39,442 nucleotides of DNA from a virus, in IMG/VR virus record IMGVR_UViG_3300022200_000136, positions 1-39,442 of that record. One strand, given 5' to 3'. Shown here one piece after another: positions 665-19,171 of the stretch. A model generated the notes under the pieces. That model did not search any database. It was given only the letters and a program-made list of their open reading frames with translations, and had not been told where the DNA came from. Every line of letters starts with the position of its first letter. Position 1 is the first letter of the stretch. Both the position numbers and the translations under genes were made by a program.

Positions 665-1055
665 AAGGCAGTACAAGTCAATTTTCAAAGAGGGGTACGT
701 AACAGCCGGTAATTATATTACGGAAGTTATCTTCGAGAAGAGGCACAATCACTTTAACTGCGGCAGGTTTCCCGAAAAATTCTGGACCGATAAAAAACAC
801 CAAGGTCCATATAAAGGTCAGGTTATACAGGCAAATAGACTTCTAAAGAAGTATCATCCTGATAGTATCATTAAGGCCATCAAGTCTCCAGAAGCTAAAT
901 TTATTTTTAAACTTCAAGATAAAAAATTGATTCCGATTATTGAGAAAATCGAGTCAAGGCGGGTTGAGACCGAGATAGAATATAGCAAGCCTCAAGAAAG
1001 CGGAACGCCAATGCCGTCATTCAGCAAACACAAAAACATATTGAGGGATTTATGA
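606..1055 (+). CDS. hypothetical phage protein, about 149 aa
   Basis: This is a basic cytoplasmic protein that I cannot name. The first 25 residues are low-complexity (Ser/Thr/Lys-rich). The rest holds a compact region with EKRHNHFNCGRFPEKFW and then predicted helices (ANRLLKKYHPDSIIKAIKS) ending in a charged tail. The reading frame is open from an ATG at 585, but neither that ATG nor the one at 606 has a strong ribosome-binding site. I prefer 606 because AGAAAG lies upstream and the overlap with the preceding gene is smaller. The stop overlaps the start of the recombinase gene (ATGA), so the two are probably translationally coupled. Confidence 0.55.
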   Translation: MPRKKQDSTDTSTKSTPTSKRQYKSIFKEGYVTAGNYITEVIFEKRHNHFNCGRFPEKFWTDKKHQGPYKGQVIQANRLLKKYHPDSIIKAIKSPEAKFIFKLQDKKLIPIIEKIESRRVETEIEYSKPQESGTPMPSFSKHKNILRDL

Positions 1056-2071
1056 GTAAAGATAAAAAGAGAAATCTAAGTAGCGAAAAAGATATAATAA
1101 AAGCTTTTGGCAAAATCATTTCAACCGGAAATGAACTCGTTAAAACAAAAGGTGATTTACAGTGCGTACCCTTTAGCCCATCTCTTGACTTGGCTTTGAA
1201 TGGAGGTCTTTTAGAGGGAACTTGGACGATAATTAGCGGCAATCCTAAAACCGGAAAAACGACAAGCTGTTTACAGGTATGTAAAAACGCACAGGATTGT
1301 GGTAGGCCGGTAATATACGTTGATGGCGAGAGTCGTTTAAAAAAGTATAACCTAGAGGGAACGCAGGGTTTAGATCTTGATAAAATTCAGATCATCCATT
1401 CGCCAGAAGACGGTGAACAGTTATCAGCAGAAGACTTCCTAGATGTATGTGAGTCCATGATACTAAAACCCGAAAACAAAGGTGCTATTTGCATTATAGA
1501 TTCGTGTTCAAGTCTAGTCCCAAGGGCGGAATTAGAATCACCCGCTTCAGCCTCACTAAGAGCATCATTGCCGAAGCTATTATCACACTGGGTTAAGAAA
1601 AACGCACAGAACGTTGTGAAAAACAAGATTGTAGTAATTATTATAACTCACTACATCACAAACACAAGCGGTTATGGAAAAGTTAAAATTCCAGACTGTG
1701 GCGTGATGGTTCAATATCAGGCTGATACAAGACTAGATATTGCCAGAATAGAAGATTGGCGAGAAGGTGGAGATAGTGGTAAAAAAATCGGTCAACTCGT
1801 ACACTGGAAGGTTGATTGCTCCGCTATGGGTGCTTCTGGAAATGAGTGCGTTAGCTATATCAGGTACGGCAAGGGTATAGATAAGGTACAAGAAATCATT
1901 GAATTAGCGGTTTCTTTTGGAATTATCGAAAAGGGCGGCTCATGGTACACTCTTTCTTTTCTTGAAGAACCCGTGAAAGTTCAGGGCATGAGCAATGTAT
2001 ACGACTTCTTATCAGAAAATCCAGAACAGATAAAAGTAGTTACTGAAAAAGTAATGGAAATGCTTTTATGA
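1052..2071 (+). CDS. RecA/UvsX-like ATP-dependent recombinase
   Basis: This 339-aa protein has the RecA core fold. A Walker A motif GNPKTGKTT sits at residues 63-71, after a segment (SPSLDLALNGGLLEG) typical of RecA/RadA/UvsX. Walker B (AICIID) ends at Asp150 and is followed by Ser-rich and Ala/Leu-rich stretches where the L1/L2 DNA-binding loops lie. A beta-strand IVVIIITH follows near residue 195. RecA-family proteins polymerise on single-stranded DNA and drive strand exchange, which in phages supports recombination-dependent replication and repair. The length matches UvsX and RecA (about 350 aa). The downstream genes (nuclease, candidate mediator, helicase, primase) fit that job. A closer relative could be the Sak4 group, but this protein is longer than typical Sak4. 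The start overlaps the preceding stop and follows GAGGG. Confidence 0.88.
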   Translation: MSKDKKRNLSSEKDIIKAFGKIISTGNELVKTKGDLQCVPFSPSLDLALNGGLLEGTWTIISGNPKTGKTTSCLQVCKNAQDCGRPVIYVDGESRLKKYNLEGTQGLDLDKIQIIHSPEDGEQLSAEDFLDVCESMILKPENKGAICIIDSCSSLVPRAELESPASASLRASLPKLLSHWVKKNAQNVVKNKIVVIIITHYITNTSGYGKVKIPDCGVMVQYQADTRLDIARIEDWREGGDSGKKIGQLVHWKVDCSAMGASGNECVSYIRYGKGIDKVQEIIELAVSFGIIEKGGSWYTLSFLEEPVKVQGMSNVYDFLSENPEQIKVVTEKVMEMLL

Positions 2072-2499
2072 CCGTTATTGGATTTGACGGCAAAGAACAT
2101 AAATTCAATTACTCAAAGTATAACTACAGAAAAAATAGGGGGAATAAATCCTCTCACCACAAAAGAGCGTACTCTGTTATAAAAGAGTTGTTCCCAAACC
2201 TATCCGTCTATGAGGAAGTAACCCTGCCCGGCTCCAAAAGGATTGGCAGAAAAACATTGCTGTATGCCGACTTCTTCATTCCAGACCTAATGCTTGTTAT
2301 TGAGGTTCATGGAAAGCAGCATTACAAATACATCCCATTCTTTCACGACACTAAGATGAATTTCATCAAAGCAAAACAAAGGGACTCCGACAAAAAAGAA
2401 TGGTGTGAAATGAACGATATTGATTTATTAGCACTACCACACTATGAGAAAGATGAAGAATGGAAACTGAAGATAATGAAGATAAGATCAAGGGATTAA
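2068..2499 (+). CDS. VSR-like PD-(D/E)XK endonuclease
   Basis: A 143-aa protein with the core of the VSR/DUF559 branch of PD-(D/E)XK nucleases: an Asp-bearing strand (YADFFIPDLMLVIEV), the active-site strand with E-V-H-G, a histidine pair (KQHYKY), and a later helix (RDSDKKEWCEMNDIDLLAL) that in this family packs against the core. The family includes mismatch nicking enzymes, phage resolvase-like nucleases and homing nucleases. Placement directly between the RecA-like gene and the candidate mediator suggests processing of recombination intermediates, possibly Holliday junctions, but substrate specificity cannot be read from sequence. It overlaps the recA-like stop by 4 bases and runs about 40 bases into the next gene. 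Confidence 0.72.
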   Translation: MTVIGFDGKEHKFNYSKYNYRKNRGNKSSHHKRAYSVIKELFPNLSVYEEVTLPGSKRIGRKTLLYADFFIPDLMLVIEVHGKQHYKYIPFFHDTKMNFIKAKQRDSDKKEWCEMNDIDLLALPHYEKDEEWKLKIMKIRSRD

Positions 2500-2945
2500 T
2501 AGAGTTCACTGAATGGGTTGATGCTTTCTGTGAAATGAATCATCTGCCAAATATTAACTACCAAGAAGAATATAAAGATGCCCTAAACTTAGGAGCGGAA
2601 GATATTACGATGATGTCTTCTGATGAATGTCTTCAAACTTCTATAGTTCTGATGAACTACGCCAGCTTTATACAAAAGCAAAAATCCCTTATTCAAGGAA
2701 AGCTTTTATGGTGCAATTCAGCAATTGATTATATCTGTAGTAGACAATGGACGAGCTACGATAAATATATGCCAGCAGACATCAAAAAGAAAGCAATAAT
2801 CTCTGAAAATAAATACGCTGAAGCTATTGAGAAGTGTCGTATCCGTTTAATGACCGCAAACAATACGCTTGAGGAAAACTATGTAGACTTAAAAAAAAGA
2901 GCATCTATTTTTGAATCGTTAGGAAGAAAGAGGAGTTTTGAATGA
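2460..2945 (+). CDS. candidate UvsY-like recombination mediator
   Basis: A 161-aa, mostly helical, soluble protein. The pattern resembles UvsY-type mediators: an acidic N-terminus, a helix with NYASFIQKQKSLIQGKLLWC, a short loop with Lys/Tyr, then long charged helices ending in basic residues (ESLGRKR). UvsY-class proteins load the UvsX/RecA recombinase on SSB-coated DNA, and their genes commonly sit near it. Here the gene is two positions after the RecA-like gene. The match is one of architecture and context rather than of a diagnostic motif, so the call is tentative. The next gene starts in its stop codon (ATGA) with AGGAG upstream. Confidence 0.45.
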   Translation: METEDNEDKIKGLIEFTEWVDAFCEMNHLPNINYQEEYKDALNLGAEDITMMSSDECLQTSIVLMNYASFIQKQKSLIQGKLLWCNSAIDYICSRQWTSYDKYMPADIKKKAIISENKYAEAIEKCRIRLMTANNTLEENYVDLKKRASIFESLGRKRSFE

Positions 2946-3457
2946 GCGTAATATCTGAAACAATGACAATTGTCGGCAAGTTAAATCAACTTATTGACGA
3001 ATTAGCCGCCGGAATAGAAGAGTCCGACTGGGAAAGAATACGTTATGTATACGAGGAAGTAACTGGAGAGGAAGCTCCAGAAGTAGAGAAGCAGCCGGTT
3101 TCTGAAATTGATAGTAGCGTAGTACAGGCACTTATCAAAAGAATAGAAAACCTTGAAAAACCAAAAAAGCCCACACGTAAACGAAAAACCACGGTAAAGA
3201 AAAAAGAGGAACCCAAAACCAACAGTAACAACAAGTTTGAAGAAATGCAGTTGAGTTTAGAGAGTGAGCTAACACCGGCTGAAAGAAAGCAACTGGAATC
3301 AATTAATGACGAGGTTCCGCCAACACCAAGAACAAGACCTGCTTTTAAAAAAGTTTCCGTAGAATGTCGTCTTTGTAATAAGACATACGAAGTGCATCCG
3401 TCACTAAAAAGAGAATCATATGTTTGTGATAAATGCGTATCAAGGAGAGCGAGATAA
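2942..3457 (+). CDS. zinc-ribbon protein with disordered charged middle
   Basis: A 171-aa protein in three parts. Residues 1-50 are a helical acidic segment. Residues 80-135 are a Lys/Pro/Glu-rich, probably disordered linker (KPKKPTRKRK). The C-terminal zinc ribbon has C142-x2-C145 and C162-x2-C165. Such ribbons bind nucleic acid or protein partners. Its place between the candidate mediator and the DnaB helicase hints at a replisome accessory such as a helicase loader or an adaptor, but that is inference from position only. The start is well supported by AGGAG and an ATGA overlap. Confidence 0.65.
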   Translation: MSVISETMTIVGKLNQLIDELAAGIEESDWERIRYVYEEVTGEEAPEVEKQPVSEIDSSVVQALIKRIENLEKPKKPTRKRKTTVKKKEEPKTNSNNKFEEMQLSLESELTPAERKQLESINDEVPPTPRTRPAFKKVSVECRLCNKTYEVHPSLKRESYVCDKCVSRRAR

Positions 3458-4960
3458 ATGAGTGAAGAAAAACTGAAGAACATAGCGTCTGAAAGGGCCG
3501 TATTAGCCGGTATTTGCCAGCATGGTAAAGACGCCTATGTTGATGTTCAGTCCTTAATCAGTGACCACACATTTACAGTTGACTATAATAAAATTCTATG
3601 GAAGTGCCTCTCTAGAGCTATTGAAAATGATAACCATATAGATTTTCCAGCGGTTTTATCTGCTGCTAAATCACTTGGTTTAGATGAATATATCGAGAAA
3701 AAGGAAGTTCTAAATCATATCAATGGCGTGATGAATACGCCGGTCCACTTAGAGAATGTATATACACATGCTAAGAAAATTAAGAGACTGGAATTTGCTA
3801 GAGAAGTTCAGAATTCATTGCGAGATATTTATCGTAGTATCAACGATATATCTGGCGACGAAAGCTTAAATTCGATCTTGTCTCTAGCGGAAGAACCGAT
3901 TCAGAGGATATGCCTTAAATATATCAAAGAGGACGAATCCAATCCAAAACTTATCAGCGAAAACATTGATGACTACATAGAGCACGTCAAAAACAATAAA
4001 TGTGAACAGGTAGGTATTTCGACCGGAAACCCAGCTTTTGATAAGGCAATTGGTGGTGGCTTAAGAAGAAAGTGTGTTGATGTTATTGGGGCACGCCCTA
4101 AAACCGGCAAGAGTGTATTTGCCGATAATACAGCACTTCACGTTGCATCAAATGGTATTCCGGTATTAATGCTTGATACCGAAATGAGCCAGCAGGATCA
4201 CTGGAATAGACTTCTAGCCAATATTAGTGAAATTGAAATCAATGATATCTCCACTGGTAAATTCTCAGACGATCCAGAGAATATTGTCAAAATAAACAAA
4301 GCACTTGACAAGATAAAGCAAATCCCATATTACTATATCAGTATTGCCGGTAAGCCATTTGAGGAAACACTATCAATAGCCAGAAGATGGCTTATTAAGA
4401 ATGTTGGATATGACGAAAATGGAAAGCTTAATGACTGCGTGATAATCTACGACTACCTCAAACTAATGACATCAACGAGTATTAGCAACAACTTAGCAGA
4501 GTTTCAGGTTCTTGGCTTTCAAATAACTTCTCTTCACAATTTCTGTGTTGAGCATGATTGTGCGTGCCTTTCCTTCGTCCAGTTAAATAGAGACGGCATA
4601 ACAAAAGAATCAACCGATGCTGTTTCTGGTTCTGACAGAATTATTTGGTTATGCACAAGCTTTTCCATCTTTAAAGCTAAAACCACCGAAGAAATGGCTA
4701 TGGACGGAATAACAAATGGAAATAGAAAGCTGATTCCAATTGTATCAAGGCATGGACCCGGTATTGATGATGAAGGATATATCTGCCTCAATATGATTGG
4801 AGAGCATTCAAAACTGATTGAAATAGGAACGATAAGAGAGATAAAAAGAAATGAGAAAAACGATGAAGCCGGAATCCCAGACAGAGAAGATATCGATCCT
4901 GAAGATGAAATTGATGACGACGATTTCAGAACTCTTGACAACCTTCGGAGTGACGAATAG
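3458..4960 (+). CDS. dnaB: DnaB-type replicative helicase
   Basis: A 500-aa protein with the DnaB layout: a helical N-terminal domain (residues 1-110) that begins SERAVLAGIC like DnaB, a linker, and a RecA-type ATPase domain. Walker A is GARPKTGKS (211-219), the catalytic Glu lies in LDTEMS (E242), and Walker B is VIIYDYLKLM with D332. A QLNRDG segment further on resembles DnaB motif H4. The C-terminus is a very acidic tail. DnaB hexamers unwind the replication fork 5' to 3' and recruit primase, which is encoded directly downstream and overlaps this gene. The start follows AAGGAG. Length is close to bacterial DnaB (about 470 aa). Confidence 0.92.
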   Translation: MSEEKLKNIASERAVLAGICQHGKDAYVDVQSLISDHTFTVDYNKILWKCLSRAIENDNHIDFPAVLSAAKSLGLDEYIEKKEVLNHINGVMNTPVHLENVYTHAKKIKRLEFAREVQNSLRDIYRSINDISGDESLNSILSLAEEPIQRICLKYIKEDESNPKLISENIDDYIEHVKNNKCEQVGISTGNPAFDKAIGGGLRRKCVDVIGARPKTGKSVFADNTALHVASNGIPVLMLDTEMSQQDHWNRLLANISEIEINDISTGKFSDDPENIVKINKALDKIKQIPYYYISIAGKPFEETLSIARRWLIKNVGYDENGKLNDCVIIYDYLKLMTSTSISNNLAEFQVLGFQITSLHNFCVEHDCACLSFVQLNRDGITKESTDAVSGSDRIIWLCTSFSIFKAKTTEEMAMDGITNGNRKLIPIVSRHGPGIDDEGYICLNMIGEHSKLIEIGTIREIKRNEKNDEAGIPDREDIDPEDEIDDDDFRTLDNLRSDE

Positions 4961-5912
4961 TTATCAGTGCGGCAGTCTATTGGTCTCAAATTGCCCAATC
5001 CATGATGGCGACAACATTTCCGCCTTTAATATAAATATAGATCCAGACAGCAATCACTACGGATCTTGGTTTTGTAACACCAAGGGGTGCCACCACAAGT
5101 ACGGTCAGGACGTTATTGCTCTTACTCATTGTTTTCTTGACAAGAAATATGACAAGACTCACTCATTTGTTGAAGTTATCAAATTCTGCGAAGAGTTTAC
5201 CAAAGGGGTCATTTCTATTAATGGGGACATTCCGGTTCGCCAAACAACTTTAGACGACATTCTTTTAAAAAATAAAAAAGTCGATAACCCAAACAAAGGC
5301 TACACTAGAGACGTTGTTAGAAGTAGACTTGTATTTCCGGCTACCTATTATTTGAATCGAGGGTTTTCTGAAACGGTTCTAAACGAGTTAGACATTGGAC
5401 TGTGCAATGATCCAAAGTCAGAAATGTATAACCGAATTGTCTTTCCCGTGTATGATGAAACTGACACATACATGGTTGGATGCGTTGGTAGATCAATAAA
5501 TGACGAAAATCCGAGAAGATGGGCCAATAAAAAAGGGTTCTCAAAGTCAAATTACCTCTATAATTACAATAAGGCGATAAAGCGGATTTCCCGTACAAGC
5601 TCTGTCATCGTTGTTGAAGGACAGGGGGATGTTATAAGACTATATGAGGCCGGAATAATCAATGCTGTTGGACTATTTGGTTCCGAGTTTCATGATCCGC
5701 AAGAATTCCTGCTGCAAAAGAGCGGTGCCTTAAATGTGGTTATCCTAACAGATAATGATGAGGCTGGTGAAAAGTGCAGGAAAGATATGAATGAAAAACT
5801 TAAATATTCATTTAACATAATAAATATTGTTCCAAACAAAAAAGACGTTGGGGACATGACAATTCAAGAAATAAACAAAGTTATTAAGCCACAAATACAA
5901 GGACTATATTAA
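4914..5912 (+). CDS. dnaG: DnaG-type DNA primase
   Basis: About 332 aa. A zinc-binding CHC2-like domain lies at the N-terminus (C27, H30, C54, C59 or H60), within NCPIHDGD and WFCNTKGCHH. A central RNA-polymerase domain follows, with the DnaG-like YYLNRGFSETVLNELDIG and a pair of strands (RIVFPVYDE, VGCVGRS). The TOPRIM fold has its Glu in VIVVEGQGD and the DxD in LTDNDEAG. DnaG makes RNA primers at the fork. No C-terminal helicase-binding domain is apparent, and the protein is shorter than bacterial DnaG (about 580 aa). The frame is open upstream to an ATG at 4851; I chose 4914 because family homology begins about there and 4851 would force a longer overlap with the helicase gene. Confidence 0.87.
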   Translation: MTTISELLTTFGVTNSYQCGSLLVSNCPIHDGDNISAFNINIDPDSNHYGSWFCNTKGCHHKYGQDVIALTHCFLDKKYDKTHSFVEVIKFCEEFTKGVISINGDIPVRQTTLDDILLKNKKVDNPNKGYTRDVVRSRLVFPATYYLNRGFSETVLNELDIGLCNDPKSEMYNRIVFPVYDETDTYMVGCVGRSINDENPRRWANKKGFSKSNYLYNYNKAIKRISRTSSVIVVEGQGDVIRLYEAGIINAVGLFGSEFHDPQEFLLQKSGALNVVILTDNDEAGEKCRKDMNEKLKYSFNIINIVPNKKDVGDMTIQEINKVIKPQIQGLY

Positions 5913-6862
5913 TGACAAAAATAGTTGCTCTGTGCGGTAAAAAACAAAGCGGAAAAACAACCTTATGTAATTACCTGCACGGTCACGAAATGAAGAGGCA
6001 TGACATCATTGAAAAATTCTTTATCTCACCAGAAGGACACTTGGTTGTCAATTCTGTATACTATGATGAAAATGGAAAAGAATTTGAGGAAATGGGAGTT
6101 CTTGACCTATTTCAGTTTACACCAGAATTCACCAATTTTGCAGGCCATAGAATTTGGCCATTAATTAAGGGTTATAGTTTTGCAGATGCACTTAAAGAAA
6201 TCTGTATTAACCTATTCGGCCTTTCTTACGAACAGTGCTATGGTTCTGATGCGGATAAGGAAACTCTTACCAAATTGAAGTGGGAGGATATGCCGGGAGT
6301 TATTTCTGCTTCAGATTTTGATCAGTTTATTAAAACAGTTAGAACGCCGTTACTTGGAGATACTAGCGAGCTAAGATACCCATTACTACTTGATCCGGCT
6401 GGACCAGATAGTGATGGGTGGTGGAATTCAACATTAAAAGAATATGGAATCCTTGTTCGCAGTACAGATAAAATGGGGTACATGACTGCCCGTCAAGTCA
6501 TGCAGTTTTTTGGTACTGATATAATGCGTAGGATGTATTCAAATATTTGGATTCAGAACTGCCTAACAAGAATCCAGTCTGATCAGTCACCAATAGCCGT
6601 TATTTGCGATTGCAGATATGTAAATGAAATAGAAGAGATTAAGAAAATTGGCGGCAAAGTTATAAGACTAACTAGATCACCGTTTGAATCAACACATCAA
6701 AGCGAAATTGATGCCGATAATTACACTGATTACGACGCAGTTATTGACAATCAAAACATGACAACGGAAGAGTCTCAACAGGAGTTTCTAAAAATCATGA
6801 TCGACATGGGAATTACTCAAAAAATTAGATTTGTAGGCAATAAAACCGCCTCAATTAAATAG
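5912..6862 (+). CDS. deoxynucleoside monophosphate kinase
   Basis: A 316-aa protein with a P-loop at the N-terminus (CGKKQSGKTT, residues 8-17). Blocks characteristic of T4 gp1-type dNMP kinases follow: SFADALKEIC, a central ARQVMQFFGTDIMRR, then AVICDCRYVNEIEEI and KVIRLTRSPF. The C-terminus resembles the family's D-x-VIxN end (AVIDNQNMT). These enzymes phosphorylate dNMPs to feed DNA synthesis, often including modified nucleotides. It is longer than T4 gp1 (241 aa) because of insertions around residues 35-80 and 105-165. The start sits next to the primase stop and is preceded by AAGGA. Confidence 0.85.
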   Translation: MTKIVALCGKKQSGKTTLCNYLHGHEMKRHDIIEKFFISPEGHLVVNSVYYDENGKEFEEMGVLDLFQFTPEFTNFAGHRIWPLIKGYSFADALKEICINLFGLSYEQCYGSDADKETLTKLKWEDMPGVISASDFDQFIKTVRTPLLGDTSELRYPLLLDPAGPDSDGWWNSTLKEYGILVRSTDKMGYMTARQVMQFFGTDIMRRMYSNIWIQNCLTRIQSDQSPIAVICDCRYVNEIEEIKKIGGKVIRLTRSPFESTHQSEIDADNYTDYDAVIDNQNMTTEESQQEFLKIMIDMGITQKIRFVGNKTASIK

Positions 6863-6874
6863 ATTGTTTAAATT

Positions 6875-7891
6875 ATGATCGTTTGTTACCACCGTTCGTC
6901 AAGTCTTGGAACCCTGTCGTTTTGTGAAATGCAATATTTTTTTCAATACGTTCTTGGGTTCAGAGGTAATACGAACAAAAAAGCATTAATGGGAACCATA
7001 GTGCATAGAGTCATGCAGGTTCTTGCCGATAAAAAAATAGCACAATCCAATAACGAAGAACTGTTAGTAAATGATGATATACAGAACTTGGAATTTGATG
7101 AATGTGATGATACGGATTTTGTTACAGAATTGTGCTTTCAGTATTATGACTCTCATGAACCGGAGGTTGGTCTTGATGAATCTGACCTAAAAACCTGTAA
7201 AAAATGGGTAAAAAAGGCTATTGCATATAATGACGGAATGTATGATCCAAGAAATCAAGAAGTTCATGTTACCGAACATTTCTTTGATATAGAAATTAAA
7301 AAACCTTGGGCTAAATTTTCATACGATGTTGATGGTAAGAAAATAGAAGGATATCTATCAATCAAGGGAACGGTTGACTTAATTATTAAAGAAGATACCG
7401 CGTATTTTCAGGTACTAGACTATAAAACTGGAAAAAGATTGAACTGGGCGACAGGTAAGGAAAAAACTCAGGAAGATCTTCAAAAAGACGTTCAATTGCT
7501 ACTTTATTATTATGCATTGAAAAACTTACATCCAGATTGGGAATTTTATGTATCAATCTATTATATAAATGATGGGGGTGTTTTTGATGTAGTATTTAGC
7601 GAAGATGATTATATCAAAGCCGAAAACATCCTGAAACAAAAGTTTGAGTACATAAGATCAGTAAAACAGCCAAAACAATTAAGTCATGATCAGACTCACT
7701 GGAAGTGTCAGCGTCTCTGTAAATTTTCCGAAATCCACGAAGAGTCTGGAAAAAGCGTTTGCAATCACTTCCACGACATGGTAAAATCAAAGGGAATAGA
7801 TAAAGTTACAGCAGATTATGCAAATTTAGATAAGTTGACAAAATACGGTTCTGGTGGCGGAAGAATAGCCGAAGACGAGAAAAAGGATTAA
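6875..7891 (+). CDS. RecB/Cas4-type PD-(D/E)XK exonuclease, possibly Fe-S
   Basis: A 338-aa nuclease of the RecB/AddB/Cas4 group. The N-terminal motif includes SLGTLSFCEMQYFFQY (C17) and an active-site helix with GTIVHRVMQ. The catalytic core has GTVDLI and VLDYKTGK (Asp, Asp and Lys). The region ends with QLLLYYYAL, the QxxxY motif of the group. Three C-terminal cysteines (WKCQRLCKF, SVCNHF) together with C17 could hold a 4Fe-4S cluster, as in AddB and Cas4. It probably resects DNA ends for recombination. Unlike its neighbours it has no clear Shine-Dalgarno before its ATG, but the conserved N-terminal motif starts right there, so the start is probably correct. Confidence 0.82.
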   Translation: MIVCYHRSSSLGTLSFCEMQYFFQYVLGFRGNTNKKALMGTIVHRVMQVLADKKIAQSNNEELLVNDDIQNLEFDECDDTDFVTELCFQYYDSHEPEVGLDESDLKTCKKWVKKAIAYNDGMYDPRNQEVHVTEHFFDIEIKKPWAKFSYDVDGKKIEGYLSIKGTVDLIIKEDTAYFQVLDYKTGKRLNWATGKEKTQEDLQKDVQLLLYYYALKNLHPDWEFYVSIYYINDGGVFDVVFSEDDYIKAENILKQKFEYIRSVKQPKQLSHDQTHWKCQRLCKFSEIHEESGKSVCNHFHDMVKSKGIDKVTADYANLDKLTKYGSGGGRIAEDEKKD

Positions 7892-7894
7892 TGA

Positions 7895-9193
7895 ATGTAC
7901 GTACCGCTGAGAAATCACTCACACTATTCTCTAACATTATCAACTTCCAGATGCAAGCAAATAACCACAAAATGTGAAGAGTACGGTTATCTATATGCCG
8001 GATTGACAGATATTGGAAGCGTGAGTGGATGTGTAAAATTTATCCAAGAATGCAAGAAAAAAGAAATAAAGCCAATCTTAGGTGCCGAACTAATCATAAA
8101 GGAATTCGGAAGAATCACTGTTCTTTGCAAGAACAAAACCGCTTGGACTCAACTTCTTTCCGTTATTTCCGTTTGCAACAATCCAGAAAACTACATTGAT
8201 GAACCATCGATTTCCATGAATGAATTAGTGGATTTAATCGACGGTTCTAATTTCGTTTGTATCGATGGCTACATCGGCAGCGGCCTGTTTAATTCTGTTT
8301 TTACTGATCATGAATGCATAATCCAAGCCGCTGATTTGGAAGAGTGTATGTCCTGTATTGACGAAGAGACTGTTGAAAGATCTTTGTCTTATATCGGAAA
8401 AATCAAGCAAGTTTTTAGTGATTATTTCTTAGAGATTGACAATATAGATAAATTGCCGGTAACTAGTGTAATGTCTGAGATTATTTACCGGATTGATCCA
8501 GACTTTGAGTTTACAATTCCGGAAAGTTCATCATTCTATCCCGATAGAAAAGATTCGCTTGATCATCGCCTTCTGTTGTGCGTTAAACTAAAAACCACAA
8601 TGAAGAAGCTTGAATCAAAAATTAATGACCTAAATGATTTCAATATGTTGAAATTCATAAGAAGTAGTAGTTACTATATCAAGTCGCCGGTAGAAATAGA
8701 AACCAGTTATAGAAGCCACGTAATCAGAAATGTTGGCGTAATCTTAGATATGATTGAAGATTTCAATATTCTGTCAAATCCTAAGCTGCCAGATTTCCAG
8801 TGTCCTGATGGCATGGAGCAAAATGATTATTTAAAGCACCTATGCAGACAGGGATGGAAAAAACTACTAAAAGACCTTCCGCCCGAAAAAATAAACACAT
8901 ATAAAGACAGAGTTCTAAAAGAGCTTGGTGTTATTGAAAAGGCCAATCTTGCCGGATATTTCTTAATTGTGCAAGATTACGTGAATCACTTCAGAGACCT
9001 TGGATATCTTATAGGTCCAGCACGCGGTTCCGGTGGTGGCTCTCTTGTTTGCTATCTGATTGGTATTACTCTAATCGATCCAATTCCCCATGATTTGATC
9101 TTTGAGCGGTTTTTCAATGTTGGAAGATATTCTTCGGATAATATAAGCTTTTCTGAGTTTTCTTATAAAGATTTTATATCTAACGGTGTATAA
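7895..9193 (+). CDS. dnaE: DNA polymerase III alpha, N-terminal fragment (PHP and palm entry)
   Basis: This 432-aa ORF is the first third of a DnaE-type polymerase. It opens with a PHP domain (LRNHSHYSL with H8/H10, then LTDIGSVSGCVKF and KPILGAEL). It runs into the palm with YFLIVQDYV and ARGSGGGSLV (R377-S379 region), the glycine/serine motif that contacts incoming dNTP. The polymerase-like sequence reaches FERFFNVGR and then diverges, ending about 25 residues later at a TAA. The catalytic aspartates are missing from this piece and lie in the ORF at 9883-10746. A strong AAGGA precedes the start. No intein N-terminal block is visible at the end. Confidence 0.87.
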   Translation: MYVPLRNHSHYSLTLSTSRCKQITTKCEEYGYLYAGLTDIGSVSGCVKFIQECKKKEIKPILGAELIIKEFGRITVLCKNKTAWTQLLSVISVCNNPENYIDEPSISMNELVDLIDGSNFVCIDGYIGSGLFNSVFTDHECIIQAADLEECMSCIDEETVERSLSYIGKIKQVFSDYFLEIDNIDKLPVTSVMSEIIYRIDPDFEFTIPESSSFYPDRKDSLDHRLLLCVKLKTTMKKLESKINDLNDFNMLKFIRSSSYYIKSPVEIETSYRSHVIRNVGVILDMIEDFNILSNPKLPDFQCPDGMEQNDYLKHLCRQGWKKLLKDLPPEKINTYKDRVLKELGVIEKANLAGYFLIVQDYVNHFRDLGYLIGPARGSGGGSLVCYLIGITLIDPIPHDLIFERFFNVGRYSSDNISFSEFSYKDFISNGV

Positions 9194-9236
9194 ATCTTCG
9201 AAAGAGTGTATACCTTACTCGTAATCGGAGATTATA

Positions 9237-9917
9237 ATGCCTAAATTAAAATGCTGTTACTGTTATGGAGAATTTATTAGACCCCCATCCAGAGGGGCGT
9301 TGTATTGTTCTTTTGAATGTTCTGTTCTTCATAAAAGAAAAAAACTAGCAGTCGATTTAAACAAAGAAACACCCGAACTATGTTATTGGATGGGTTTTTT
9401 ATTTGGTGATGGAAGCATAGATGTTAATAACAAACTCCAAATTTGCTTATCCTCAAAAGATATTGATATACTAACGCAGCTTTCTGTTTTCTTGTTTGGC
9501 AAAGACTGTGTTAATAGATATAATGACAGATGTCACCTACAATACTCCAGTCCTGAAATCCGAAAACCTTTAAGCAGATATGGTATAATACCAAACAAAA
9601 CCAAAAAATCTGTACTGACATTGCCAGAAAGATACAAATCAGATTTTATAAGAGGGTATTTTGATGCCGATGGTTGGTATTCTAATAAAAAATACAAGCA
9701 TAAAAACGGGAAATTTTATTCGAAATACGTTTGGGGAATTTGCTCCTATTTGCCAGAAAATTTAGAGGTAGTAAATCGAGAGCTACCAATACAGGGCAGA
9801 ATAACAAAAAAGAAAAAACAAGAACTGTACGAGTTAAGATTTCAATCAAAAAAAGATATTGAAGAAATAAGGAATTATCTGAATGGAACTCCAAACCTTA
9901 AAAGAAAATGGCTTTAA
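9237..9917 (+). CDS. LAGLIDADG homing endonuclease with N-terminal zinc finger
   Basis: A 226-aa protein inserted in the polymerase gene. Residues 5-28 hold a cysteine cluster (C6/C7, C9, C24, C28) resembling the short zinc fingers found on homing nucleases. Two LAGLIDADG helices follow: YWMGFLFGDGS with D58, and FIRGYFDADG with D145, the expected metal-binding acids. The enzyme would cut an uninterrupted dnaE allele and spread by repair. The ORF has its own ribosome-binding site (GGAG, 6 bases before the ATG) after a 43-base gap. Little non-coding sequence surrounds it, so it looks like a free-standing insertion rather than an intron-borne one. Its end overlaps the next polymerase piece by 35 bases. 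Confidence 0.88.
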   Translation: MPKLKCCYCYGEFIRPPSRGALYCSFECSVLHKRKKLAVDLNKETPELCYWMGFLFGDGSIDVNNKLQICLSSKDIDILTQLSVFLFGKDCVNRYNDRCHLQYSSPEIRKPLSRYGIIPNKTKKSVLTLPERYKSDFIRGYFDADGWYSNKKYKHKNGKFYSKYVWGICSYLPENLEVVNRELPIQGRITKKKKQELYELRFQSKKDIEEIRNYLNGTPNLKRKWL

Positions 9918-10746
9918 TCCAAATACGAAAAAGTTTGAGGAAGTAAAAGATTCCCCACATCTAACCAGAGAGTGGGAGATTATTAATGAAATGGAGCAGG
10001 GTATAGATTATTACAAGTATATTATTGATAATGTTGACATAAGCCACAACGCTAACAATAGCTTTGTTTTATGGGTTTGCGATAAGGTAAATGATATTAA
10101 TAAAAATAATCCGGTCAAATTCAATGCTGGTAACTACGCCCTTCCAGATATTGATGTTGACTTTCCGCCGTTTATACGTGATGACGTTATTTCGTACATC
10201 AAAGATAAATACGGTCATGATAAGGTTTGCCAGATGGTAACGTTTGGTAAGCTTGCTGGAAAGTCCATAATTAAAGAAGTTCTCAGAGCGAACGAGTCGT
10301 GCTCATTCGACCAGATGAATACCATTACGTCCAAACTTCCGAATGAATCTGCCATTTCAGACCTTCTTGAAGAAATGGATGAACCTTCCGTTATTCGTTG
10401 GACGCTAGAACACGACCCAGATTCCCTAATAGACTATTGCTGGCTAAATGAAGCGGGAGATTTAGAAGGGGATTATGCTAGGGAGTTTGAACAGGCTTTG
10501 AGAATGGAAGGAATTTTTAAAACACGCGGTAAACATGCTGCCGGTGTTGTCATTTCGTCTGAAACCCTAAATACCGTATGCCCAATGATTAAGCCCGCTC
10601 GTGGCGGTGAAAAAATTGCGGGAATGGAAATGGATGATCTGGAATCAATCGGCTGTGTTAAGTTTGATATTTTAGGTGTCAATCTTTTACAAAAAATTAT
10701 GGAATGTATTGGAGATATTGAGAATGGGGATAAAAGTAGCTTTTAA
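9883..10746 (+). CDS. dnaE: DNA polymerase III alpha, middle fragment with catalytic Asp residues
   Basis: A 287-aa ORF with the palm of DnaE. LPDIDVDF carries the two metal-binding Asp (D89, D91), and KFDILG near the end carries the third (D262). Between them are the conserved CQMVTFGKLAGKS and GKHAAGVVIS segments. The first 80 or so residues have no counterpart I recognise in DnaE. They may be a remnant of, or an adaptation to, the homing-endonuclease insertion. The start follows a TGA in frame and has AAGGA 9 bases upstream. The ORF ends soon after KFDILGVNLL, before the fingers domain, which continues in the ORF at 11567. Confidence 0.86.
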   Translation: MELQTLKENGFNPNTKKFEEVKDSPHLTREWEIINEMEQGIDYYKYIIDNVDISHNANNSFVLWVCDKVNDINKNNPVKFNAGNYALPDIDVDFPPFIRDDVISYIKDKYGHDKVCQMVTFGKLAGKSIIKEVLRANESCSFDQMNTITSKLPNESAISDLLEEMDEPSVIRWTLEHDPDSLIDYCWLNEAGDLEGDYAREFEQALRMEGIFKTRGKHAAGVVISSETLNTVCPMIKPARGGEKIAGMEMDDLESIGCVKFDILGVNLLQKIMECIGDIENGDKSSF

Positions 10747-10882
10747 TCTAGAGTTTCCAGAAATTGTAGACTTCAATAAGGTCAGGAAGGATATAGAAGA
10801 AGAGATAAGAACCCTTATTTCCAAAATAGAAGAAAATAACGTAAATTACAAAGTTGAACGACTTAACATTATTAAATACTGA
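10724..10882 (+). CDS. small ORF, 52 aa, in the second dnaE break
   Basis: A short ORF begins at an ATG preceded by GGAG (10711-10714) with 9-base spacing, and overlaps the end of the middle polymerase fragment by 23 bases. The protein is predicted to be helical and charged (RKDIEEEIRTLISKIEE), perhaps a short coiled coil. I do not recognise it. The good ribosome-binding site and tight packing against the exonuclease gene argue that it is translated. Confidence 0.5.
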   Translation: MGIKVAFNLEFPEIVDFNKVRKDIEEEIRTLISKIEENNVNYKVERLNIIKY

Positions 10883-10889
10883 GGACAAT

Positions 10890-11570
10890 ATGAACTATAG
10901 AGATTTTTGTGTTTTTGACTTTGAAACAACAAGTGCTAATCCAGATAGGACTCAGCCGGTCCAAATTGCCGCCGTGATGGTACACGGGCGTAAACTTGAG
11001 GTAAAGGCTGGATCTGAATTTGAATCGCTTATAAGGCCAGTATTCGACGAGGAAGAGTGTGTCAAGCTTGGTATAGATCCATTAGAAGACGGTGCTGTAG
11101 CAGTTCATGGTAAAACCAAAGCAATTCTAGAAAGTGCTCCACCTATTGATGCGGTATGGAAGAACTTCACAGAATACGTCAATCAGTATAACTACAAGGG
11201 TAGTAATTTCACCGCACCAATCGCTGTTGGTTACAACATTAGAAACTTTGACTTGCCCATAGTACAAAGATTGTGTTGTCAAGAACCGTACAACCTTGGT
11301 CCAGTAAACAAAAAGGGCAAGCCAGATATATTCAACTCAATACATATTATCGACATGCTGGACTTTATGTTCTCTGTATTCGAGAACAACAAAGAGGTTA
11401 ACTCTCTAAGTGCCGACAATCTAATCCGTGGCTATATGGGATACAAAGACACTGGTCAGGCACACGATGCTTTATCGGACGTTATTATGATTGCTGAACT
11501 TTTCTGTAAAATTCAAAAAATGATAAGATATACTGCTTCCAGAAAGAACTTTAAAAAGGCTTTTGCATGA
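10890..11570 (+). CDS. DnaQ-like DEDDh 3'-5' exonuclease (proofreading)
   Basis: A 226-aa exonuclease of the DnaQ/epsilon type. Exo I is VFDFETT (D10, E12), Exo II is GYNIRNFDLP, and Exo III is AHDALSDV, with the His of the DEDDh class. It should proofread for the phage DnaE, which like most bacterial alpha subunits has no exonuclease domain of its own. The gene lies inside the interrupted polymerase gene, between the palm and fingers fragments. I chose the ATG at 10890 (GAGGA just upstream, and the Exo I motif begins within ten residues) over a TTG at 10854 in the same frame. Its end overlaps the next polymerase fragment (ATGA). Confidence 0.9.
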   Translation: MNYRDFCVFDFETTSANPDRTQPVQIAAVMVHGRKLEVKAGSEFESLIRPVFDEEECVKLGIDPLEDGAVAVHGKTKAILESAPPIDAVWKNFTEYVNQYNYKGSNFTAPIAVGYNIRNFDLPIVQRLCCQEPYNLGPVNKKGKPDIFNSIHIIDMLDFMFSVFENNKEVNSLSADNLIRGYMGYKDTGQAHDALSDVIMIAELFCKIQKMIRYTASRKNFKKAFA

Positions 11571-13111
11571 TTGATATAACTAGCATATCGTTTGATGACG
11601 AAAAAGTTTGGGGAATGATAGGCGAAGGAAAAGTAAAGGGCTGCTTTCAGATAGAAAGCCATCTTGGTAAAACTTGGTGTAAAGCCCTTAGACCTGAAAA
11701 CCTTGGAGAACTTGCGGCACTAATCAGCGTAATCAGACCGGGATGCCTAAAAGCAAAGGGTGCTGACGGCAAATCAATGACACAACACTATGTTGATAGA
11801 AAGCATGGTGAAGAAGAGGTTGTTGAACTTTACCATAGCATAAACGACATTCTTGAAAAAACTTATGGCGTCATGGTTTTTCAGGAACAGGCTATGAAAA
11901 TAGCACAGAGAATGGCTGGATTTGACCTAAAAGAAGCCGACAATCTCCGAAAAGCTATTGGCAAGAAAAAAGCAGACCTCATGAATAAGGTGAGGATTGG
12001 ATTTATCGACGGTTGTGTTAAAAACGGTATTGATGAAGCAAAAGCTATTGAGGTTTTCGACATTATTGAAAAAAGTAATAGATACTCATTCAATGCATCC
12101 CATGCCGTTGCGTATGCTACGATGGCTTATTGGTCCGCGTGGCTAAAATACTACCATCCGATCAACTTCTATAAAATCTGGCTTAGGAATTCTAGCGAGA
12201 AAATTAAACCAGACCTTGAGAAGAAACAGTTGATTCTATCCGCAAAAGCGGAGGGTATCAACATTGCCGGTCCAAGTATTCTCAAACTAGAAGAAAAGTT
12301 CTTCTGGGATAGCGATAACGATTCGATTAGATTCGGTATTTGTGATGTGAAAAACGTTGGATCGGCCCATCTGTTACAACTCAGAAAATCACTTCAGGAT
12401 ATAGATAGAGAAAACTGGATCTCAATCCTGACAACCGCACTTCCATCAATTAACAAGCGTGCCATAGAAAATCTAATTTCTGTTGGTGCGTTCGCCTGTT
12501 GCGGTAAAAGTAGAACGTCAATGCTACATGAACTTTCATGTTTTCTTGAATTAACCAAGAAGGAAATGGAATTCTTCAAAGAGCATTTAGATCCTTCAGA
12601 AAATCTAGAATCACATCTTCGTAGATTAATAAGTCTTGGAACAAAGTCAGAAGGTGGTTTTATTTCCAGTAAAAATAGGATCAGTAAAGTTGAAAGTATA
12701 GTTAGTAGGCTCGCTAATCCCGGAAGATCTTTAGATGACAACCCGGCATCCTATGCCAAAATAGAGGAAAAGCTTTTGGGCTACAATGTCAATCACAATG
12801 AATTAGATTCTTGCAGCGATGCGTCTTATGCAGACTCAACATGTCATGACGTAAATAATGGTAAATTTAGCAAATCAGTTCTAGCTGTGATTATTAAAAA
12901 GTTCAGAGAGCATAAAACTAAAAATAAAGATATGATGGCATTTCTTTCAGTTGAGGATGAAAGCGGCGAATTAGAAAATGTTGTGGTTTTTCCTGAAATT
13001 TATGAACAGAGTAAGGATATAATGTACGAAGGAGCAACTGTTCTTATTACAGGTGAAATTACGGACAAAAAAAGAAAATCATTCATTGTAACAAACGTAT
13101 TTCAAATTTGA
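11567..13111 (+). CDS. dnaE: DNA polymerase III alpha, C-terminal fragment (fingers to OB fold)
   Basis: A 514-aa ORF that resumes DnaE just where the middle piece ends. It begins SISFDDEKVWGMI, followed by the fingers motif GCFQIES, then IRPG, YGVMVFQEQ, the nucleotide-binding ADNLRKAIGKKK, and FNASHAVAYA. Residues about 245-310 have helix-hairpin-helix character (GICDVKNVG, NKRAIENLISVG). The C-terminus (about 436-514) is an OB fold (MMAFLSVEDESGELENVVV). The three pieces sum to about 1230 aa, close to E. coli DnaE (1160). The start overlaps the exonuclease stop, so the ORF is probably translated by coupling. Confidence 0.9.
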   Translation: MIDITSISFDDEKVWGMIGEGKVKGCFQIESHLGKTWCKALRPENLGELAALISVIRPGCLKAKGADGKSMTQHYVDRKHGEEEVVELYHSINDILEKTYGVMVFQEQAMKIAQRMAGFDLKEADNLRKAIGKKKADLMNKVRIGFIDGCVKNGIDEAKAIEVFDIIEKSNRYSFNASHAVAYATMAYWSAWLKYYHPINFYKIWLRNSSEKIKPDLEKKQLILSAKAEGINIAGPSILKLEEKFFWDSDNDSIRFGICDVKNVGSAHLLQLRKSLQDIDRENWISILTTALPSINKRAIENLISVGAFACCGKSRTSMLHELSCFLELTKKEMEFFKEHLDPSENLESHLRRLISLGTKSEGGFISSKNRISKVESIVSRLANPGRSLDDNPASYAKIEEKLLGYNVNHNELDSCSDASYADSTCHDVNNGKFSKSVLAVIIKKFREHKTKNKDMMAFLSVEDESGELENVVVFPEIYEQSKDIMYEGATVLITGEITDKKRKSFIVTNVFQI

Positions 13112-17943: not shown

Positions 17944-18398
17944 AGACTATGATAGTTACTGAACATCTTGGTTTTTCCGAACTTAACTATTCAATATTTA
18001 GTAATGTAAACAAAATTGTGTCATCTTCCTTAAAAGAAGTTTCAATAGTTCCAATGGACGTTTCTAACAAAATGATGCAGATTTTGACTGCGGTTATGAA
18101 TGTTAGTGAAATGAGTTCGTTTTCAGACGGGGTAGTTATAGCGGCAAATATTGATCATGCAAAAGAGATCGCCTCATTAGTAACAAATTCTAGAAAGTTG
18201 CTGTATTTATGGGACTTGGATTGGATGTATAAAAAAATGAGTTTCATAGAAGTATATGAAATTCTAAACAACCCCAAACTAGACATTATTGTTAGATCTA
18301 AAACGCACCAGAACGTTGTAGACAAGCTTCTTAAAAATAAGAAAACACTCGGGATCGTTAAAACTTTTGACTTGGAGAAAATATGGAATTTGCTATAA
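17940..18398 (+). CDS. small Rossmann-like protein, possible GT-B partner
   Basis: A 152-aa protein that I cannot name firmly. It shows strand-helix-strand alternation (VVIAANIDHAKEIASLV, KLLYLWDLDWM, LDIIVRSKTHQNVVDKLL), like one Rossmann half of a GT-B enzyme with the acceptor-side loops missing. It follows the CgeB-like gene with an ATGA overlap and AAAGGA upstream, so it may act with it as the other half of a two-chain transferase. Alternatively it is a decayed copy. There is no catalytic motif to decide. Confidence 0.5.
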   Translation: MKTMIVTEHLGFSELNYSIFSNVNKIVSSSLKEVSIVPMDVSNKMMQILTAVMNVSEMSSFSDGVVIAANIDHAKEIASLVTNSRKLLYLWDLDWMYKKMSFIEVYEILNNPKLDIIVRSKTHQNVVDKLLKNKKTLGIVKTFDLEKIWNLL

Positions 18399-19171
18399 AA
18401 AATAAAGAAGTGATATTGAGGATGTATAGAGACGGGTCTAGTAGTTACGAGATCGCCAAAGTCCTTAATACATATCCTAATAAGATTTTAAGATCACTAG
18501 CATATCTTGGTGAGGAAAAAAGAGACTACTCCGAGGCTCAAAAAATTGCTTTAGAGCAGGGCAGAAGTAAACACCCGACCGAAGGCAAAAAGCTTGATGA
18601 AAAACATAAGCTTAAAATTGGAAAGTCTAGATCTAAGTCGTGGAGTAAAATTAGTGATGAAGAAAGGGAGAGACTGTCAGAACAGAGTCGTCAGAATTGG
18701 GAAAGTCTACCTGAAAGCAAGAAAAATGAAATTAGGGATAAATCAATAGAGGCAATCAGGCGAGCAGGCAAGGAAGGCTCAAAAACGGAAAAGCATCTTA
18801 AAAAGAAACTAGAAGCCGCTGGATATCGCGTTGATTTCCATAAGACTAATCTAGTTATGAACTCTAATTTAGAGGTTGACCTGTTTCTTCCCGGATTAAA
18901 AACGGCTATTGAAATAGATGGTCCAAGCCACTTTTTTCCTATCTGGGGCGAAGAAAAGTTCCAAAAACAGGTTGCTGCGGATATAATAAAGCAGGGAATT
19001 TTACTCGATAACGGGTATGTTATATTGCGTGTAAAACAAATTTACAAGCACGTTTCTATTACGAGAATGAACGAATTGACTGCAAGAATTTTGCAAGAAA
19101 TAAAGAAAATAGAGGACAGTTTTCCAGAAGAAGGCAATAGACTAATAGAAATAGAGGTAGGAAATGAGTGA
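18383..19171 (+). CDS. VSR/DUF559-type nuclease with NUMOD3-like repeats (homing-type)
   Basis: A 262-aa protein with three parts. The N-terminus is a helix-turn-helix (RMYRDGSSSYEIAKVLNTYP). Residues about 65-125 are charged helical repeats with GKKLDEKHKLKIGKSRSKSW, similar to NUMOD3 DNA-binding modules of homing nucleases. The C-terminal catalytic core has LEVDLFLPGLKTAIEIDGPSHF (Asp, then Glu-x-Asp with His) and a terminal strand DNGYVILRVKQIY, the VSR/DUF559 layout. It likely cuts DNA at a defined site and may be a mobile homing gene inserted between the glycan cassette and the annealing-protein gene. TTGGAG precedes the start. Confidence 0.72.
   Translation: MEFAIKNKEVILRMYRDGSSSYEIAKVLNTYPNKILRSLAYLGEEKRDYSEAQKIALEQGRSKHPTEGKKLDEKHKLKIGKSRSKSWSKISDEERERLSEQSRQNWESLPESKKNEIRDKSIEAIRRAGKEGSKTEKHLKKKLEAAGYRVDFHKTNLVMNSNLEVDLFLPGLKTAIEIDGPSHFFPIWGEEKFQKQVAADIIKQGILLDNGYVILRVKQIYKHVSITRMNELTARILQEIKKIEDSFPEEGNRLIEIEVGNE

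Follow-up and report, generated by a model that had tools for sequence, protein, structure and literature searches.

The locus analysed here raises the question of how a DnaE polymerase that is encoded in pieces could work, and of what broke its gene. In the window (the whole 39,442-nt stretch), three ORFs on the plus strand jointly cover a bacterial-type DNA polymerase III alpha subunit, and the polymerase is indeed coded as three chains, as the original prediction held (432, 287 and 514 aa). The N-piece (7895..9193) carries a PHP domain (Pfam, 6e-18) and the N-terminal palm half, whose GS motif reads ARGSGGGS (N-part of DNA_pol3_alpha, 8e-31). The second ORF (9883..10746) contains the remainder of DNA_pol3_alpha (3e-33), with the catalytic palm and thumb at 10141..10743 bearing the catalytic Asp motifs LPDIDVDF and KFDILG. 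The C-piece (11567..13111) harbors fingers (8e-45), HHH (1.5e-7) and a weak OB-fold match (PF01336, 6e-5), which at 23.3 bits falls below the curated Pfam cut-off of 27. PHP domain, GS motif, DxD and KFDxLG palm motifs, and fingers, as expected of a C-family polymerase, are present, and the catalytic motifs are invariant across the compared sequences. Each piece has a start codon with an upstream purine-rich site, and each is presumably translated.

Another replication gene had been reported as nested in the split dnaE, and this gene proved to encode a DnaQ-like 3'-5' exonuclease, DEDDh-type by motif (10890..11570, plus strand; PF00929, 1.3e-14; phrog_192, 2e-25), whose stop overlaps the C-piece ATG (ATGA). 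The 39,442-base record, which is possibly a fragment, contains no other PF07733 match and no intact dnaE elsewhere. No DNA-level relative was found among 50,697 phage records, and the closest protein match of the palm ORF is 30% identical. It should be noted that a replication module lies upstream (1052-7891), with a UvsX-like recombinase, DnaB helicase, primase, dNMP kinase and PD-(D/E)XK nuclease. A small ORF of about 52 aa (10724-10882), to which nothing in the fetched loci is significantly related, overlaps the palm stop in the palm/exonuclease interval, and a second endonuclease-like gene, of HNH or homing type, is found at 18383-19171 (phrog_559, 2e-11).

The breaks had been placed just before LPDIDVDF and just after KFDILG. 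Break 1 does fall immediately before the LPDIDVDF codons, between the GS-bearing half of the palm and the catalytic palm, but break 2 lies about 20 residues past KFDILG rather than directly after it. Likewise, the 287-aa palm piece has the palm motifs, but its first ~86 aa are not polymerase by sequence, and a LAGLIDADG gene between the first two pieces (9237-9917) had been overlooked. Instead of a single three-part split, our analysis identified two unrelated fractures, of which the second is normal for the group (31 palm clusters) and the first is mobile.

Break 2, between palm and fingers, was compared across relatives (L numbers below); a search with the palm piece yielded 76 related loci in viral contigs. 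In nearly all of them N-piece and palm form one open frame, while palm, exonuclease and fingers are separate genes. When palm clusters were defined at 93% palm identity, with both palm and fingers in view, 31 clusters (all loci fetched) had palm and fingers split and the exonuclease between them. Palm and fingers share a single frame only in the outgroups SPbeta YorL and L075/L076, and in L080. In the latter, an 816-aa frame with a GTG start (4151-6598 of that locus) covers both parts and no exonuclease lies between them. On the palm tree L080 is the sister of L069 (support 97/97, long branch) inside the split group, and its single frame is therefore probably a re-fusion. Since break 2 is near-universal in the group and single frames are confined to the outgroups and L080, break 2 is, by its distribution, an old lineage-wide fission ancestral to these phages.

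The LAGLIDADG gene at break 1 (9237..9917, plus strand; PF14528, 1.1e-8) encodes a 226-aa putative homing endonuclease with the motifs LFGDG and FDADG and a Cys-rich N-terminus, and its relatives at the same site are 40-52% identical. A predicted RNA hairpin (9185..9241, plus strand; z -3.1) covers its ribosome-binding site and start codon; hairpins at the endonuclease start are also predicted in L073 (z -4.3) and L091 (z -3.5), and not in L080. Most relatives have an empty break 1, with one open frame, and the site is occupied in the window, L073, L080, the L081 group (including L173, a copy in a MAG), L162, L163 and L164. These fall at seven separate places on the palm tree; parsimony gives seven changes, at least four of them forced by well-supported branches. 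Palm and endonuclease identities disagree: the window and L073 share 73% in the palm and 42% in the endonuclease, as against 47% and 52%, respectively, for the window and L080. Along the N gene, most 60-nt windows show 90-100% DNA identity between occupied L073 and empty L011; identity drops to 68% in the next-to-last window upstream of the insertion (the last being too gapped for a score) and returns to 93-100% for 480 nt from LPDID on. This dip looks like a co-conversion-like footprint of recent homing. A homing endonuclease ORF separates two parts of a gene that relatives have intact, and occupied and empty alleles exist in close relatives (L073 and L011) as well as across seven scattered lineages. 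Judged by these comparisons, break 1 is a separate, mobile fracture made by an endonuclease and absent from most relatives. Assembly error is unlikely, since both breaks recur in independent metagenomes, break 1 in seven palm lineages and break 2 in 31 palm clusters. As a separate observation, the DnaE of a distant phage has a related LAGLIDADG gene (33%) within its fingers region (L092, 2220-5487).

The element at break 1 comprises more than its endonuclease gene. The N-piece ends in an element-encoded C-terminal tail (FSEFSYKDFISNGV; 9149..9190, plus strand) that begins with the motif [SN]FxE in all eight loci where it was seen (the window, L073, L080, L081, L091, L162, L163 and L164), including L091, which has tail and endonuclease on a contig that ends before the palm. 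The motif is absent from uninterrupted relatives, and codon-position conservation in the tail is weakly biased (0.52/0.57/0.49). In turn, every palm piece in view at an occupied break 1 opens with an element-encoded N-terminal leader of 85-92 aa (~86 aa in the window; 9883..10140, plus strand), whose ORF has its own start codon inside or near the end of the endonuclease gene; in the window this codon lies within the 3' end of that gene and is preceded by AAGGA. The leader, known from seven lineages only, is 25-50% conserved as protein, with invariant E, YY, I, N, NS and W residues. In most of 21 pairs, conservation is strongest at codon position 2, weaker at position 1 and weakest at position 3, and L081 and L163 differ by dN 0.50 and dS 1.43. 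On this pattern, the leader is under selection as a protein. It has no significant match to known domains, so a docking role would be argued from its conservation and position, and two viral scans and one genome scan did not detect it outside break 1. Its model is all-helical (pLDDT 81).

We also considered whether the leader is a reduced version of the stretch of DnaE that precedes the palm strand. The top Foldseek PDB match of the model was Taq Pol III alpha (4iqj_C, E 8.7; VIA Z 4.4 over residues 306-460), and its one match in BFVD was a phage DNA polymerase (E 8.2). Neither polymerase match is significant, and in the profile comparison with the DnaE segment 118 of 150 column shuffles reached a score as high. 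The leader is perhaps a remnant of this kind, which we keep as a lead.

Tail and leader persist where the endonuclease does not. In L162 the endonuclease is reduced to a C-terminal remnant, and in L164 it is gone, leaving 78 nt between the N-piece stop and the leader start, with a short stretch that reads like the last endonuclease codons; both loci retain tail and leader. Within the L081 group, all members of which are split, variable codons comprise 54 synonymous and 6 nonsynonymous changes in the N-piece (pN/pS 0.03) and 30 and 1 in the palm (pN/pS 0.01), the leader alone offering 2 variable codons only. As this variation is almost wholly synonymous, the halves are not pseudogenes, and on these counts they are under strong purifying selection. 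In addition, the L164 halves and leader, read through as a single chain for modelling, were predicted to adopt the DnaE fold (mean pLDDT 74), aligning with the best-matching Pol III alpha chains over 502-510 residues of PHP, palm and thumb (Z 22-27). Alignment A13 was used for modelling; several multi-fragment alignments misplaced the leader or N-pieces and were left out. The L164 model has no confident tail-leader contact, which we attribute to its construction as one linked chain and to the pLDDT below 50 of tail and linker.

These data bear on whether the halves are rejoined at all. The original prediction allowed for trans-joining, yet break 1 bears no sign of an intein or intron, and the genuine split inteins of relatives lie at another site. 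If break 1 were a self-splicing intron of an undescribed type, with the LAGLIDADG gene inside it and the halves joined as RNA, this would fit the exactness with which a conserved catalytic motif is targeted and the homing mobility, both typical of group I introns, inside which LAGLIDADG genes are often found. Rfam searches, however, revealed no intron at gathering score in the window or in seven relatives, and none up to E 10 in 8900-11800, where a very divergent core would escape; moreover, the leader is conserved as a protein with its own start codons, and L164 has only 78 nt outside tail and leader. We consider the intron quite unlikely. The same searches gave a SAM-SAH riboswitch-like match (9949-9998; E 0.053; 22 bits, where the gathering score is 40), which we take as chance because it falls inside the leader coding frame. 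Protein trans-splicing, with tail and leader as a tiny split intein, has precedent in fractured genes in which an endonuclease occupies the gap of a split intein, and canonical split inteins do occur in the GS motif of five relatives, between GPGRG and SAAG (L048, 4656-6627; L049, 3860-6627; L060, 3623-6753; L067, 4414-6753; L162, 2148-3769). Those start with CFLPDT, CFLPDS or CFVPET and end in VHN before Ser. By comparison, position 1 of the break 1 element is Phe, not Cys or Ser; the last residue of the leader is Ala, Ser, Glu or Gln, and there is no His-Asn; residue +1 is Leu, Met or Tyr and not Cys, Ser or Thr; and the leader model is all-helical, whereas inteins have the all-beta Hint fold. 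A split intein at break 1 is thus highly improbable. Inteins were encountered elsewhere too: L049 and L060 have a separate nuclease-like ORF in the split-intein gap; the L162 split intein comes on top of the other breaks, leaving that polymerase in four pieces, and L162 also has an in-frame intein in the fingers (6860-8227; KSITKDSVVQ...ATSN/SHAVAYG); and in L163 (3-1730) and L173 (3-1844) an upstream PD-(D/E)XK nuclease gene contains an intein that ends PTHN/T and bears its own endonuclease-like domain.

The split polymerase might instead be decaying and unused, the phage relying on the host enzyme, and an endonuclease inserted into an active-site motif should be damaging. The purifying selection on both halves in split carriers (pN/pS as above), the invariant catalytic motifs and the retention of the split in seven lineages make this very unlikely. 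Another possibility is that the three chains do assemble but tail and leader are by-products of insertion, the tail a read-out to the next stop and the leader the consequence of a start codon supplied upstream, neither acting as an adaptor. The short tail, its weak codon signal and the lack of a predicted tail-leader contact agree with this account. Nevertheless, the leader keeps its 25-50% conservation and its invariant E, YY, NS and W across seven lineages and is retained after endonuclease loss, and all eight tails keep [SN]FxE, and we regard this explanation as unlikely.

The explanation that we favor, and consider probable, is that a non-splicing homing element splits DnaE and supplies the parts of an adaptor, with the chains assembling non-covalently and break 2 being an ancestral fission. 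The replicative polymerase would then be a C-family enzyme in which each of the three chains is translated on its own, alongside a separate exonuclease, whose gene the ancestral fission would have placed between palm and fingers throughout the phage group. The element, a LAGLIDADG gene flanked by the tail on the N-piece and the helical leader on the palm piece, would insert exactly before the codons of the LPDIDVDF palm catalytic strand, and the three parts would spread jointly by homing, provided that the endonuclease is active. It would never splice out. With a start and a stop belonging to each, the halves would assemble into a normal, presumably active DnaE fold, most likely aided by a docking role of tail and leader. 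Decay of the endonuclease would leave split, tail and leader in place.

Introns and inteins mask their cost by splicing; this element has entered the active site in the palm of a replicative polymerase again and again, and no splicing was found. The chances seem to us evenly balanced that it represents a third lifestyle in an essential gene, a homing cassette that is neither intron nor intein, splits an active site and brings its own adaptor pair, which becomes fixed after endonuclease loss. The relatives display the stages of such a history (empty site, recent invasion, endonuclease decay, and endonuclease loss with the split kept), and the several natural tail/leader pairs make reassembly of a split enzyme testable. 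The arrangement also suggests a route from single-chain to multi-subunit polymerases.

We know of no earlier DnaE split by a LAGLIDADG gene. The closest counterparts are the phage Aeh1 nrdA-a/mobE/nrdA-b genes and the T4-like gene 60 and 43A/43B, where, as here, the gene of an essential replication enzyme is interrupted at a critical site by that of a homing endonuclease and its halves are separate polypeptides, active where tested (PMC2988022). Specifically, the two parts of Aeh1 NrdA have full activity, and in phage 25 the 43A and 43B halves co-purify with polymerase activity (PMC2988022), precedents which indicate that an enzyme split in this way can function. In mobE and I-TevI the ribosome-binding site of the endonuclease gene is sequestered by a hairpin, as it may be by the predicted hairpin in the window, L073 and L091. 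Those systems differ in having HNH or Seg-type endonucleases and other host genes, rather than LAGLIDADG and DnaE. In the present case, moreover, the element takes a conserved tail and leader with it in several lineages, and both remain once the endonuclease is lost.

Group 2.2 jumbo phages have a minimal Pol III alpha split into NTP-binding and Mg/DNA-binding proteins (PMC7824862), a functional cut that corresponds roughly to break 1; however, the genes lie far apart, the minimal domains lack PHP, a family B polymerase is present alongside, and no endonuclease is reported between the halves. Cyanobacterial split DnaE and other fractured genes with split inteins share with this locus a DnaE in pieces and a possible endonuclease in the gap, but are joined by Hint-fold inteins, whose defining residues break 1 lacks. 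In Campsomeris, mitochondrial cox2 underwent a nuclease-associated insertional fission into two translated halves (PMC5374615), which resembles break 1 in that a conserved gene is split in two in association with a nuclease; unlike break 1, it concerns a single animal lineage and a 3-kb ORF cluster, with no recurrent mobile tail and leader reported. Endonuclease-made genes in pieces are thus already known from phage Aeh1 nrdA, and a LAGLIDADG-split DnaE with its own tail and leader is a new form of them.
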